This document shows positions 5,981-60,305 of a DNA stretch of 64,000 nt, piece after piece. Each line of letters opens with the position of its first letter. The stretch's first letter is position 1. The stretch is from the NCBI RefSeq assembly GCF_031851795.1, contig NZ_CP134696.1, positions 744,001-808,000 on the forward strand, written 5' to 3'. This stretch comes from Pontibacter sp. G13. GTDB lineage: Bacteria > Bacteroidota > Bacteroidia > J057. Under the pieces are notes generated by a model. That model was given only the letters and a program-made list of their open reading frames with translations. It was not told where the DNA came from and made no database searches. The position numbers were made by a program, and so were the translations under genes.

Positions 5981-6307
5981 GGGTGCGGCTGGCTGGTGCG
6001 GCGTAAGTTGCCTGTCGTGTTCAGTCGGCAAACGCAGGCTCCATGATCGATGATGGGGAATAGGGCACGTGAATACTGATCCTGTGGGGAATCATGCAGA
6101 TGGCCGACCGAGCGATCAGCGAGCACAGAAGGGAACGACCCAGCGATTCGCTAGCCCAAGCGCTTCCTGAAAAATCTAAGCACGCTGGGATACGCCCAAC
6201 TCCAAATGCATGCGCTCACCACCAGTCTGAGAGGAGCCTTACGCAATCTCAACCGAAGTTAATGGCAGAGAATTGCTATCTTGCTTGTACATCCAAATTT
6301 CAGCCCT
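5981..6307. other. Gene-free GC-rich stretch, possible repeat relic
   Basis: I see no convincing gene here. A 79-codon plus-strand frame (6094-6333) lacks any protein-like pattern. Short pieces recall repeats elsewhere in the window: GTGCGGCGTAAG at about 5997 resembles the left end of the dispersed element at 37104-37280, and CTTCCTGAAAAATCT at about 6170 resembles the palindrome arm in the tandem block at 57710-59076. Both are short and could be chance. Confidence 0.3.
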
Positions 6308-37044: not shown

Positions 37045-37103
37045 GCTTGCTAGTTCCCTGAGGATGATTGGGGCGTATCCCGGCGAACTTGGGAGTACTT
37101 TTG

Positions 37104-37280
37104 CGCCTGACAGTCAAGTCGCCGGGCCGGGCTATGCATGGGTTCGCTGCGCTCCGTCCTCCGCTGTTTTCTCCCTAGTATCCATTCAAAGCGGGCCGTT
37201 TTTCACCACTTGGCATGGGCAGGACAGCTCCGGACTGCTCCCTAGGGGTCGCACCATTCCTATCCCTTACGCCGCACGAT
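37104..37280 (-). repeat. Dispersed element, copy 1
   Basis: Read on the minus strand this copy starts GCGGCGTAAGGGATAGGAA, has GCAGTCCGGAGC, a middle of about 60 bases, CAGCGGAGGACGGAGCGCAG, then CGAACCCATGCA and ends CCGGCGACTTGACTGTCAGG. The same blocks in the same order occur at 57521-57650 and 59166-59340. No open frame is conserved among copies. It fills the gap between the sufE terminator and yedK. Confidence 0.8.
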
Positions 37281-37306
37281 CCACCGCACACCAACTATCA
37301 CATTCC

Positions 37307-56950: not shown

Positions 56951-57469
56951 ATGCCCGCCACCATCATCGCCATATTCGCTGCCGCCGAAAATCACGTCAT
57001 CGGAAGCGAAAACACCATCCCTTGGAGGCTCCCTGCCGATCTCAAGCATTTTAAGCGCATCACGATGGGCAACCCCATGATCATGGGCCGCAAGACCTTC
57101 GAATCCCTACCCGGTCTTCTGCCCGGCCGTCGCCATCTCGTCCTTTCCCGCAATCCCGAATTCGAAGCCCCGGGCGCCGAAGTCTTTCCCGATCTGGCAT
57201 CAGCCATTGGTGCATGTGGAGACGCCGAGCAAATTTCCATTGTAGGCGGCGCGACCATCTACGAAGCCGCATTTGAGGCCGGAATCATCGACAAAGTGTA
57301 CAAAACGCTGGTCCATGCCGAGGTGGAAGGAGATGCGACCTTTGACATCCCCCAACCCGAATTGTGGCAGATCTCGAACGTAGACGCCCACCAAGCCGAC
57401 AGCAAGAACGAATTTGCCTATACCTTCTTGGAACTCACTCCCCGGGAAGCTCCCGATTCCTTGGCATAG
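56951..57469 (+). CDS. folA: Dihydrofolate reductase
   Basis: 172 residues from the ATG at 56951. Markers: AAAENHVIGSENTIPWRLP with the conserved Asn-Trp/PWRLPAD region, DLKHFKRITMGNPMIMGR and the NADPH-binding GRKTFESLP, later ISIVGGATIYEAA. Acidic residue equivalent of E. coli Asp27 is D in PADLKHF. The frame extends upstream to 56453 antisense to the lipoprotein gene but is not protein-like there. Makes tetrahydrofolate. No thymidylate synthase gene nearby. Confidence 0.94.
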   Translation: MPATIIAIFAAAENHVIGSENTIPWRLPADLKHFKRITMGNPMIMGRKTFESLPGLLPGRRHLVLSRNPEFEAPGAEVFPDLASAIGACGDAEQISIVGGATIYEAAFEAGIIDKVYKTLVHAEVEGDATFDIPQPELWQISNVDAHQADSKNEFAYTFLELTPREAPDSLA

Positions 57470-57520
57470 GTATTTCTGCTGGACCATTTGGGCGTGCCCC
57501 CGCGAACTGATCAAACAGGA

Positions 57521-57650
57521 GACGCCTGGCATGATAGTCGCGGGGTCGCGTGCTGCATGGGTTCGCTGCGCTCCGTCCTCCGCTGAATGCTCCGGACCGC
57601 TCCTGAAGGAGCGCCATTCCGCCCGCTCACGCCTCCGCAAGCCATCCGCA
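57521..57650 (-). repeat. Dispersed element, copy 2
   Basis: Minus-strand reading: GCGGAGGCGTGAGCGGGCGG, GGAGCGGTCCGGAGC, CAGCGGAGGACGGAGCGCAG, GAACCCATGCA, CCGCGACTATCATGCC. Same block order as at 37104-37280 but without its ~60-base middle. It directly follows folA. No terminator is obvious, and this element may act as one. Confidence 0.8.
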
Positions 57651-57709
57651 CCTTCATTTTGATGGAAAAAGTCTAGCGAGCGCAGAGATAAAGACCTTTC
57701 CCAAGCCGA

Positions 57710-58249
57710 CACATCCTCCTCTGCAGCCATAGCCAAGACCCTGCGTCCGCGCCACTCGCGGATCTCCTGAGCGAATGCATGAATGCCGGGCCCTCCCCTC
57801 CAGTGTCATTCTGAAAAATCTGAAGCCCGGGCCTGTGCGCTGGAGATTTATTCAGAATCTTGAGAGGAATGAATGCCCAGCGCCCCTAGATCCTGAATCG
57901 GCCACCCTCGCCGGAAGCCTCGGCTATGGCCGTTCAGGATGACATGTTGGGAAGGAATGACATCCTGCCCTACGGCCGCCCAACCGCAAACCCCGTTGCA
58001 GGGACGCGAGATCCCTGATAAATCCCACGGCCCACAGATGCCAGCGCAGGGATTTTCAGGGATGAGGCAAAAGGTTTTGAAGGAAAAAACTGATTCTAAG
58101 CGAACAACAAATCTGCCTCATCCCGCAAAATTTCGACGCCGTGGCGCCGGTGGGCTGGGAAATTTATGCGGGATCCCAAGCTTCGTGCATGCCAAGGCTT
58201 GTCTTTTGCCAAGCGCCAGCATCCATCCACGCCACATCCCCAAACCCTA
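57710..58249. repeat. Tandem repeat, unit 1 (540 bp)
   Basis: First of two full copies. It contains four palindromes: 57804-57862 (TCATTCTGAAAAATCT with its near complement AGATTTATTCAGAAT), 57889-57941 (ATCCTGAATCGGCCA type), 58010-58067 (ATCCCTGATAAATCCC type) and 58119-58175 (ATCCCGCAAAATTTC type). The unit ends before the second copy's CACGTCATCC. Left edge approximate. Confidence 0.85.
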
Positions 58250-58792
58250 CACGTCATCCTCGACGGCCATAGCCAAGGCCCTTGCGTCGGCGCCGATCGG
58301 GGATCTCCTGAGCGCATGCATGAATGCCAAGCCCACTCCTCTTGTGTGTCATTCCGAAAAATCTGAAGCCCGGGCCTGTGCGCTGGAGATTTATTCAGAA
58401 TCTTGAGAGGAATGAATGCCCAGCGCCCCCAGATCCTGAATCGGCCACCCTCGCCGGAAGCCTCGGCTATGGCCGTTCAGGATGACATGTTGGGAAGGAA
58501 TGACATCCTGCCCTACGGGCGCCCAACCGCGATCCCCGTTGCAGGGACGCGAGATCCCTGATAAATCCCACGGCCCACAGATGCCAGCGCAGGGATTTTC
58601 AGGGATGAGGCAAAAGGCTTTGAAGGAAAAAACTGATTCTAAGCGAACAACAAATCTGCCTCATCCCGCAAAATTTCGACGCCGTGGCGCCGGTGGGCTG
58701 GGAAATTTATGTGGGATCCCAAGCTTCGTGCATGCCGGGGCTTGTCTTTTGCCAAGCGCCAGCATCCATCCACGCCACATCCCCAAACCCTA
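58250..58792. repeat. Tandem repeat, unit 2 (543 bp)
   Basis: Nearly identical to unit 1 over most of its length. Differences cluster in the 60 bases at the left end (around 58270-58345). All four palindromes are kept. Open frames such as 58482-58955 only reflect the repeat. Confidence 0.88.
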
Positions 58793-59076
58793 CACGTCAT
58801 CCCCCACGGCCATAGCCTCGGCTTGTGTGGCTGCGCCTATCGGGAATCTCCTGAGCCCGAAACTGAATTTCAAGCCCACTCCCCCTTTGTGTCATTCTGA
58901 AAAATCTGAAGAGCCGGCCTGTGCGCTGGAGATTTATTCAGAATCTCGGGATTGAATGACATCCTGCCCTGCGGGCGCCCAACCGCAAACCCCGTTGCAG
59001 GGACGCGAGATCCCTGATAAATCCCACGGCCCACAGATGCCAGCGCAGGGATTTTCAGGGATGAGGCAAAAGGTTT
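58793..59076. repeat. Tandem repeat, unit 3 (partial)
   Basis: Matches the first part of units 1 and 2, lacks about 89 bases containing the second palindrome (the join is at ~58950) and stops in GAGGCAAAAGGTTT at 59076, before the fourth palindrome. So it is both internally deleted and truncated. Confidence 0.85.
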
Positions 59077-59165
59077 GTTGAGCATATGTGGTAAGCGCTG
59101 TAGGCGCGACGTCTCACAAGCAAGGGGTTCCAACCCGATGCTTCCTTTCTGAAATGTGCGGCTGG

Positions 59166-59340
59166 CTTGCGGCGGCGATAGGGATGGGAAGGGCGAGCCG
59201 TCAGGCGAGGTCCGAGGCCACTGAGTCTGTGGGAAAGGGTTCCAAGATTAAGGCGACTAGAGCTTTTGGGAGGAAATATCCGAGGACGGGAGCGCTAGCG
59301 GACTCCTGGAACAGCCCGGCTCGGCGACTTTCATGCCTAG
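59166..59340 (+). repeat. Dispersed element, copy 3 (most divergent)
   Basis: Plus-strand reading: TTGCGGCGGCGATAGGGATG, GGGAAGGGCGAGCC, GCGAGGTCCGAGGC, a middle of about 60 bases, CCGAGGACGGGAGCGCTAGC, GGAACAGCCCGGCTCGGC and GACTTTCATGCC. Same block order as copies 1 and 2 but on the other strand. It lies 90 bases beyond the tandem repeat block. Confidence 0.7.
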
Positions 59341-59472
59341 ATAGGAATGGGGGCTCAGTACGCCGAGATCGCCCAAATGGCCATGCAAAAACTCAAACCC
59401 CAAAATTGAGTGAATCGGAAAACCATGATACAATCCTCTCTTGGCATGGCTTGAGAACCAACCTGTAGGACC

Positions 59473-59538: not shown

Positions 59539-59985
59539 TCAGGAGGCTTCCTCGGTGCTTTCGGCTGCTTCGGCTTCGCCTTCCTCTTCTGGGAGTTCGA
59601 ATTTCACGCCGTATGCGAGGAGGATTTTGTACCAGCTGATCAGTTTCTTGACATTGGAAGGATATACCCGCTCCCCGTCGAAGTCAGGCAATACATCACC
59701 CAAGAATCCCATGAGCTGATCCTTGTTACTCTTCTTGGTGACGGGCAATTCCTCGCCATACTTGTCCTGAATGGCCTTGAAGACATTCACAAGCGGCTCG
59801 GAATCCGTTTCCGTGTAGATACTGATATCCACGACTTTGGAAACCATCATGTTTCCTTTCACCAATTGACGACGCTTGGCCTCGTCCATTGATTCCACAA
59901 CGATCGCACGGTCGTCTGCCTTGACCACGCGATACAAACCCGGTGCACCCGTCAGGGCCACTACATCTTTTATTTCAATATCCAT
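59539..59985 (-). CDS. DUF5606 family protein
   Basis: 148 residues from ATG 59985, which gives the usual start MDIEIKDVVALTGAPGLYRVV; a longer frame to 60048 has no family character. The N-terminal beta domain (~1-60) is Tudor-like, with VKADDRAIVVESMDE. A helical part (LVNVFKAIQDKYGEELPV, MGFLGDVLPDFDGERVYPS) follows, then an acidic tail ending in EEAS. Common in Bacteroidota, function unknown. Divergent from lon. Confidence 0.9.
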   Translation of the reverse strand: MDIEIKDVVALTGAPGLYRVVKADDRAIVVESMDEAKRRQLVKGNMMVSKVVDISIYTETDSEPLVNVFKAIQDKYGEELPVTKKSNKDQLMGFLGDVLPDFDGERVYPSNVKKLISWYKILLAYGVKFELPEEEGEAEAAESTEEAS

Positions 59986-60305
59986 ATCCTTGATTTTGTC
60001 TCTCTCGAAACGAGTAACGTTTCCGATCTTGCCTTGTTCAAACGCCATACCAATGGTTGGACGAGGTGAATTTCCGTGAACGGCGGTGACCTTTTCAGTC
60101 TAGCGAAACTCGTGGATTGCGAAAAAACGAAAGTATAATCAATAATTCCACGTTTATGCCGCTTTTACTATTAAATCCTGCCAGAAATACAGAGATTTGT
60201 AATAAGGCATTAGGTTTGCACGTCGCCGATCAATAGACATTGGGTCTTTGTTCTGAGGGTTTTCGTGTGGGAACAAGGCCTTCCACTCTTGAAGGAGCAG
60301 ACAAC
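59986..60305. other. Divergent intergenic region between DUF5606 and lon
   Basis: A 320-base region, AT-rich between 60110 and 60210. It carries a -7-like box (see 60211-60218). No gene. Confidence 0.35.
60211..60218 (+). promoter_or_regulatory. Candidate -7 box for lon
   Basis: TAGGTTTG matches TAnnTTTG. It lies 88 bases before the lon ATG. No -33 box at the right distance; a TTTG only 11 bases upstream does not fit. Confidence 0.3.

Follow-up and report, generated by a model that had tools for sequence, protein, structure and literature searches.

The tandem block lying between the DHFR gene (56951-57469, plus strand) and the DUF6852 gene (59539-60048, minus strand) is probably one of many intergenic mosaic arrays of loop-expanded CGTC-type REPs that have been amplified in tandem. 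The window, that is, the whole 64,000-nucleotide stretch analysed here, covers positions 744001-808000 of a 7,538,910-base contig, the chromosome being this one 7.54-Mb contig. Judging by the relatives of its DHFR and by its RAYT signature, the genome belongs to the Bacteroidota. The original prediction of units of 540 and 543 bases plus a shortened third is confirmed by the repeat spacings: in a repeat search of the window, units start at 57700, 58240, and 58783 (start-to-start 540 and 543), the two full units are 97% identical across a 300-nt stretch, and unit 3 is short by 87 bases, its segment 58943-59076 being spaced 456 instead of 543. TRF, for which the longest stated period is 500, missed the tandem block in the window. 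The four hairpins claimed for each full unit are indeed related to one another, but the correct count is five, in the order F B C D E on strands + + - - +, the F module at 58252-58307 having been missed. F is the weakest-folding of the five, and 2 of its 3 copies in the window are degenerate. Similarly, the claimed extent of 57710-59076 stands for the repeat but not for the limits of the structure, since two inverted copies of another repeat, the FR frame element, were left outside (57486-57654 and 59153-59378). The FR-bracketed structure spans 57486 to 59378, with the architecture [FR>57486] (F) B>C<D<E> F>B>C<D<E> (F) B>D< P [FR<59378], and the open reading frames of 155 and 157 aa within the block are repeat sequence read through. 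The features are as follows.

57486..57654, plus strand: FR frame element, left copy, 5′ end ATTTGGGCG toward the DHFR gene (HMM E 3.3e-38, with an HMM seeded with this same copy)
57700..58239, plus strand: unit 1, 540 bases (repeat spacing)
57712..57767, plus strand: F module of unit 1, degenerate, in register with F (z -2.7 but through another hairpin, no module fold)
57804..57861, plus strand: module B of unit 1, TGTC-ATTCTGAA/AAATCT..AGATTT-A-TTCAGAAT-CTT (hairpin scan; DNA fold z -3.6)
57887..57944, minus strand: module C of unit 1, TGTC-ATCCTGAA/CGGCC..GGCCG-A-TTCAGGAT-CTA (hairpin scan; DNA fold z -4.1)
58008..58067, minus strand: module D of unit 1, CCTC-ATCCCTGA/AAATCCC..GGGATTT-A-TCAGGGAT-CTC (hairpin scan; DNA fold z -4.4)
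58116..58177, plus strand: module E of unit 1, CCTC-ATCCCGCA/AAATTTC..GAAATTT-A-TGCGGGAT-CCC (hairpin scan; DNA fold z -2.8)
58240..58782, plus strand: unit 2, 543 bases (repeat spacing)
58252..58307, plus strand: module F of unit 2, CGTC-ATCCTCGA/CGGC..GCCG-A-TCGGGGAT-CTC (hairpin scan; DNA fold z -1.4)
58347..58404, plus strand: module B of unit 2 (hairpin scan)
58430..58487, minus strand: module C of unit 2 (hairpin scan)
58551..58610, minus strand: module D of unit 2 (hairpin scan)
58659..58720, plus strand: module E of unit 2 (hairpin scan)
58783..59076, plus strand: unit 3, with 87 bases deleted (module C lost), ending after D (repeat spacing and module scan)
58795..58850, plus strand: module F of unit 3, degenerate (DNA fold z +0.3)
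58890..58947, plus strand: module B of unit 3 (hairpin scan)
59007..59066, minus strand: module D of unit 3 (hairpin scan)
59093..59137, plus strand: P element (AGCGCTGTAGGCGCGAC..GGGTTCCAACCC), like those on both sides of the genome's IS200-like tnpA gene (the single P match in the window; position by eye)
59153..59378, minus strand: FR frame element, right copy, inverted (HMM E 5.2e-31)

The modules share one plan: a tag (TGTC, CGTC, or CCTC), an 8-bp stem beginning A-T, T-A, an unpaired A on the 3′ arm, a second stem, a loop of about 22 nt, and the tail CT. A hairpin scan for the feet TCATYC and RGRATC with at least 12 of 15 positions paired was run on 621 kb (the first 40 stretches, 30 of them chosen for holding matches, plus the window and two transposase loci) and returned 394 hairpins, where a single mononucleotide-shuffled version of that DNA gave 11. 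In 368 of the 394, the fit is best with one bulged base on the 3′ arm, following base pair 8, and in every one of these 368 modules that base is A. The tags, summed over the 20 commonest feet and with TC demanded by the scan, are TGTC in 164, CGTC in 95, and CCTC in 91, thus at least 350 of 368; stem positions 1 and 2 are A-T and T-A in all 368, the feet TCAT and ATC being demanded by the scan, and the loop beyond the second stem is 20 to 26 nt long in 355. The scan was repeated with the 5′ foot only and no demand on the 3′ side, the module-bearing regions having themselves been chosen by modules. A full 8-bp partner (G-T allowed) was found within 36 to 86 nt for 374 of 505 such feet in module-bearing intergenic regions, compared to 0 of 29 in other intergenic DNA and 5 of 142 in genes. 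Among these 374 of the 5′-foot set, an A adjoins the partner in 367, the inner stem is best fitted with a one-base bulge in 360, and the tail after the 3′ arm is CT in 332 and CC in 32.

Covariation was read from 92 aligned modules with distinct arms, all of which had first been selected for pairing: both sides vary in 10 of 13 stem pairs and 97.3% of cells are paired, a figure that falls to 24-50% when one arm is slid. There are nine stem types (B, 86 modules; C, 85; E, 69; F, 45; H, 33; D, 30; d, 12; K, 6; N, 2). Because the apical loop is partly common across the types (consensus AGCC..GGCC..GCGATGG), they are taken as one family rather than as convergent hairpins. The modules are, then, a single family with at least nine co-varying stem types and two-sided changes, and the proposal that they are diverged relatives of one palindromic element amplified as a set is borne out by the alignment, the covariation, and the identities within arrays given below. 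Rfam covariance models gave no match to them. The combination of tag, hairpin, and fixed bulge suggests recognition in single-stranded form, as DNA or RNA, by a putative protein.

The DNA examined amounts to 0.75 Mb in all (the 40 stretches, of which 30 had matches and 10 were taken at round coordinates; 19 later ones, chosen for modules or FR except for one piece of contig C2; and the window) and holds 438 modules in 58 module-bearing intergenic regions. A BLAST search of the genome with a 541-base unit gave 252 matches, and a covariance model of the modules gave at least 150, all 150 of the candidates scored having matched. The 10 round-coordinate stretches (199 kb) include arrays in two, with 16 modules; extrapolating from these two array-bearing stretches, a rough guess would be some 600 modules genome-wide. 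The many solitary copies that had been expected are few: in the first 41 stretches there are 47 clusters of 1 to 25 modules, and only 4 of the 47 consist of one. The order within clusters is far from random. The commonest adjacency, B> C<, a heterodimer with its tags outside, accounts for 70 of 321, versus a mean of 8.9 and a maximum of 21 in 1000 shuffles, and there are 49 kinds of neighbour pair where shuffles give about 95 (minimum 87). For six types, module identity is 0.94-0.98 within arrays versus 0.79-0.85 between them, which is a signature of local tandem duplication and homogenisation. Moreover, BLAST finds multi-module blocks, spacers included, common to separate loci (for example, 378 nt at 84%); since such long blocks recur at distant sites, spread involved blocks and not just single hairpins. 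A strand-specific single-stranded DNA transposition model predicts a replichore bias, and the bias seen is weak: 20 of 31 clusters for B/C (p 0.15) and 26 of 38 for types E, F, H, D, and d (p 0.03).

The closest known relatives are the CGTC REPs (Di Nocera et al. 2013, PMC3733652), which, in the accessible part of that survey, carry the tag CGTC, often TGTC or CCTC, and a stem of 8-9 bp with A-T and T-A first, lie mostly between genes in five phyla including Bacteroidetes with no adjoining transposase gene, and have loops of 4-5 nt and mostly CCA tails, with clusters rare outside Neisseriae and Wolbachia; other loop lengths are given there for a few families (Bradyrhizobium, K. olearia, M. prima). 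The modules resemble these in tag, 8-bp stem, tags-outside (HH) dimers including heterodimers, intergenic location, and the lack of a transposase alongside, and the prediction of a REP-like nature was to this extent right. However, as set against that same portion of the survey, they differ in having a second stem with its unpaired A, a loop mostly of 20-26 nt in place of 4-5, and the tail CT instead of CCA, and in lying nearly all in arrays. Given the mismatch in loop and tail, they are filed as loop-expanded relatives, not as members, of the CGTC REPs. No prior description of such arrays or of the A-bulged form was found in the open-licence literature.

Other genomes suggest how the long form may have come about. 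Of 12 family genomes searched with the module model, 3 gave 5 matches between them (best E 3.6e-7 to 8.5e-6); by eye, all 5 keep the bulge A. A search of the phylum, under stricter filters and with 14 candidates scored per genome, gave matches in 21 of 395 genomes, the window's own included. Among 27 loci fetched from other Bacteroidota, 12 are 28-nt hairpins of the type TGTC-ATCCCGGA-CTTGA-TCCGGGAT-CTC, with the loop CTTGA in 11 and CTCGA in one, and others have intermediate or long loops; B and C stems are both found as short forms in other genomes (L199 and L197). The 28-nt hairpins have a tag and a stem like those of the modules, and the last base of the CTTGA loop falls exactly at the position of the long form's unpaired A. 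We infer that the long form arose through insertion into the loop of the short one, a direction given by parsimony and not by a tree. A probable history is that a short CGTC REP took up extra sequence inside its CTTGA loop, leaving the final A of that loop as the bulged base; that the element would then have diverged into stem types and spread; that intergenic sites would have gathered modules together with two further REP-like kinds, G (RAYT-like) and P (IS200-tnpA-like); and that tandem duplication of module blocks, whether by recombination or by slippage, would have been followed by local homogenisation. Array formation itself either occurred more than once or is old, since one genome of another family (G149) has its own tandem arrays of long forms. 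In that genome, one independent tandem array (L189; G149:608518-611586) consists of long-loop CGTC hairpins of 69-74 nt, has a repeat period of 388, and begins at the 3′ end of an IS110 gene.

A comparable organisation has been described for the NIMEs of Neisseria, intergenic mosaic arrays of 200-2700 bases made of dRS3, itself a CGTC REP and the target of a prophage integrase, plus RS repeats (PMC3898611, as far as the available portion goes). The arrays here are likewise intergenic mosaics of a CGTC-type REP with other repeat families, in that 47 of the 58 module regions contain FR and most G and P elements lie inside such regions. The likeness is one of analogy only: the NIMEs belong to another phylum and use a short-loop REP, and higher-order tandem units do not figure in that portion of the paper. 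Nevertheless, this suggests that NIME-like mosaic arrays are not peculiar to Neisseria, and the genome stands out as an extreme case, with hundreds of loop-expanded copies in arrays whose layout can be taken as a history of duplications. In our view, the arrays are for the most part DNA that propagates itself or is driven by recombination, and not a device serving the DHFR locus. In 7 relatives, the roughly 10 kb on the 3′ side of the DUF6852 gene contain no DHFR, and in 3 more the same holds for the 2-5 kb at hand; the 40 relatives returned included none of the same genus. With neighbours that differ in this way among relatives, the DHFR locus offers no empty site for comparison.

Y1 (HUH) transposases recognise a tag plus a bulged hairpin. 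The modules have that form, and they might be REPs of the usual sort that the genome's own Y1 enzymes, of the RAYT subclass 2.6 or IS200-like subclass 1.2 type, mobilise in trans, an alternative that we regard as unlikely. A Y1_Tnp family search of the genome found two genes, one of 153 aa with DHVH and YIRRQKEHH, the subclass 1.2 (IS200-like) signature, and one with NHIH and YIHQNP, the subclass 2.6 signature, which is NCBIfam REP_Tyr_transpos (RAYT); both signatures are defined in the accessible text of PMC6006769. Also in favour, the arrays are shared by G elements (GAGCCGGATTAC..GAAATCCGGCTC; 91 copies, 87 in module regions), which resemble the RAYT hairpins of relatives, and by P elements (105 copies: 89 in module regions, 11 around the genome's own IS200-like gene, and 2 near the RAYT gene). 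In comparisons of G with the RAYT hairpins of two relatives, 3 of 4 hairpins score above all 300 shuffles; against the two own RAYT hairpins, the scores are 41 and 40 and that of the best shuffle is 40. However, both own Y1 genes are flanked by hairpins other than modules, and the module model, built on this genome's modules, has no match in 24 Y1-transposase loci of 10 family genomes, some of these loci ending at contig ends. The expectation of a REP-associated transposase was thus correct as to the presence of the gene but not as to its hairpins. The RAYT gene lies about 6 kb from one array, which we judge uninformative because arrays are so numerous. The CGTC REPs, too, are without transposase association in the part of the 2013 survey (PMC3733652) at hand.

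BIMEs and REPINs are inverted REP dimers and clusters in intergenic DNA. The modules are like those that go with RAYTs (PMC3116915) in forming inverted dimers and clusters between genes; unlike the GTAG-type REPs, which occur beside RAYT genes according to the portion of PMC3733652 available, they are beside none of the 24 Y1 loci. As to the Y1 genes themselves, the IS200-like tnpA (L071 960-2380, chromosome about 1434986-1436406) has tandem P hairpins on both sides, with P copies also in arrays, and genes of relatives with a similar signature (L138, L139, L146, L147) are also near hairpins, while the available text of the 2018 transposase survey (PMC6006769) gives no REP for subclass 1.2. The RAYT gene (L072 1140-2060) is flanked by its own CGCGGACT..AGTCCGCG hairpins, and the RAYT loci of two relatives (L153; L154) have GGATTAC..GAAATCC hairpins that resemble the G elements of the arrays.

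About as unlikely as movement by the Y1 enzymes is the notion that the arrays have a function as transcribed RNA or as DNA elements (a terminator, an mRNA stabiliser, or a nucleoid or gyrase site) for which selection keeps them at gene ends. It would account for a structure that is strongly conserved over divergent stems and for the enrichment between convergent genes, which make up 20 of 61 module regions versus 38 of 307 others (p 0.0003), on gene calls from a crude codon-usage caller that scores 63% as coding on average; moreover, FR is inside predicted genes in 0 of 96 cases. Yet the copy number and composition of arrays vary from site to site, Rfam has nothing similar, and when 12 other family genomes were searched by BLAST with the composite sequence, scoring 7 candidates in each, 11 gave no match and the last one matched nothing but 40 nt of FR. 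The plasmid, phage, and viral collections gave no match either.

The inverted FR copies raise the question of whether the block is the interior of a composite or MITE-like transposon, with FR as its ends and the hairpin array as cargo; this is quite improbable. FR is a repeat in its own right, whose ends read ATTTGGGCG and CCGCAC, and the genome has at least 150 copies, three of them on a 93-kb contig; in 12 other family genomes, for each of which up to 150 candidates were scored, there are 13 partial matches, all in one genome and none in the other 11. The 64 rows returned by the FR HMM represent 63 copies (L059 19462 and L060 2462 are the same). What speaks for a transposon is that, of 43 FR copies with modules within 400 bases, 42 have them on the inner side, that intergenic regions with two FRs have them in the > < arrangement in 19 of 20 cases, and that FR pairs exist with zero, one, two, or three modules. 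FR is found in 47 of 58 module regions versus 26 of 310 other regions, in stretches partly chosen for both. Against this, 53 of 73 FR-bearing regions have a single FR and 11 of 58 module regions have none, and FR tends to sit behind gene 3′ ends (a gene 3′ end faces its 5′ side in 59 of 92 copies, and in 55 of 63 if the gene is within 150 bases), which by itself would make copies face inward between convergent genes. Furthermore, 18 FR pairs show no target-site duplication (mean 0.89 bases, versus 0.89 for shuffled mates), and paired FRs are about 0.58 alike compared to about 0.61 for random pairs, two figures that are normalised slightly differently. Since the mates are unlike and the target is not duplicated, FR is better seen as a separate repeat at the same intergenic sites than as transposon ends, and the MITE-like origin that had been proposed finds no support. 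Module-free FR pairs are about 15 bases or up to about 300 bases apart, and one (L248) holds two G elements. In the window itself there are two FR elements without nearby modules, at 5983-6201 and 37067-37290. FR may be a structured element of its own; in trimmed columns 13-60 of its alignment (A2), what looks like a covarying stem, CCCNGCG..CGCNGGG, surrounds some 30 variable bases. Finally, near-identical tandem units are points of assembler failure, but an assembly artefact is very improbable for dozens of arrays on one 7.54-Mb contig with units that differ within and between sites and, in the window, a third unit bearing its own deletion.

Returning to arrays of CGTC-type REPs as the preferred reading, these REPs span several phyla and, in the accessible part of the 2013 survey (PMC3733652), are assigned no enzyme, so that nine stem types with a nearly invariant unpaired base offer a ready set of substrates for finding the reader, protein or RNA. 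A concrete candidate is supplied by IS110 insertions. The only IS110-family gene found in the genome (PF01548 and PF02371, a 326-aa frame) belongs to an element of about 1251 bases at L038 6623-7880 (chromosome about 1706620-1707880) that splits an F module of an array at the base of the stem, next to the tag, and two intact copies of its target site are in the same array. In the noncoding part upstream, 11 of 12 target bases recur, a match also reached in 17 of 1000 shuffles and so no more than suggestive of a guide. Among 32 further genomes, 23 with module-model matches and 9 without, there are 47 IS110 copies in 6 genomes, and junctions were read for 35 of these, which with the genome's own makes 36. 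By strict reading 20 of the 36 junctions are in CGTC-type REPs (24 by the initial reading by eye): the own copy (1 of 1), 7 of 9 in G004 (L296-L304), the other two having the same junction sequence and a doubtful 3′ arm, 2 of 3 in one G149 group (L312-L314), and 7 of 8 and 3 of 4 in two G041 groups (L315-L322 and L327-L330). The other 16 junctions take in the whole of three further groups (11 copies). At many single copies, pairing alone does not exceed that of shuffled flanks; it is the fixed junction, rather than pairing, that carries the evidence for insertion into CGTC-type REPs. That IS110-family elements enter REPs is already known from IS621, ISPpu9/10, and ISRm19 (PMC1525189, PMC11208160, in the portions available), and the likeness to those cases is the fixed place inside CGTC-type REPs, here in the genome itself and three others; the difference is that such cases account for insertions into modules and not for the modules themselves. 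It is conceivable, although distinctly unlikely, that the nearly invariant bulged A, its fixed 8-bp distance from the tag, and the swapping of whole stem types make up the recognition code of a dedicated enzyme that has been overlooked for all CGTC REPs, with the RNA-guided IS110/Piv recombinases as one candidate class, several IS110 groups of Bacteroidota inserting beside the tag of CGTC-type REPs. If so, IS110/Piv-type recombination between modules would both break arrays and build them. The G041 targets are REPs with short stems, CGTCATTGC..GCAATCT and TGTCATCCT..AGGATCT, in a genome that gave no module-model match in the phylum search (14 candidates scored per genome).
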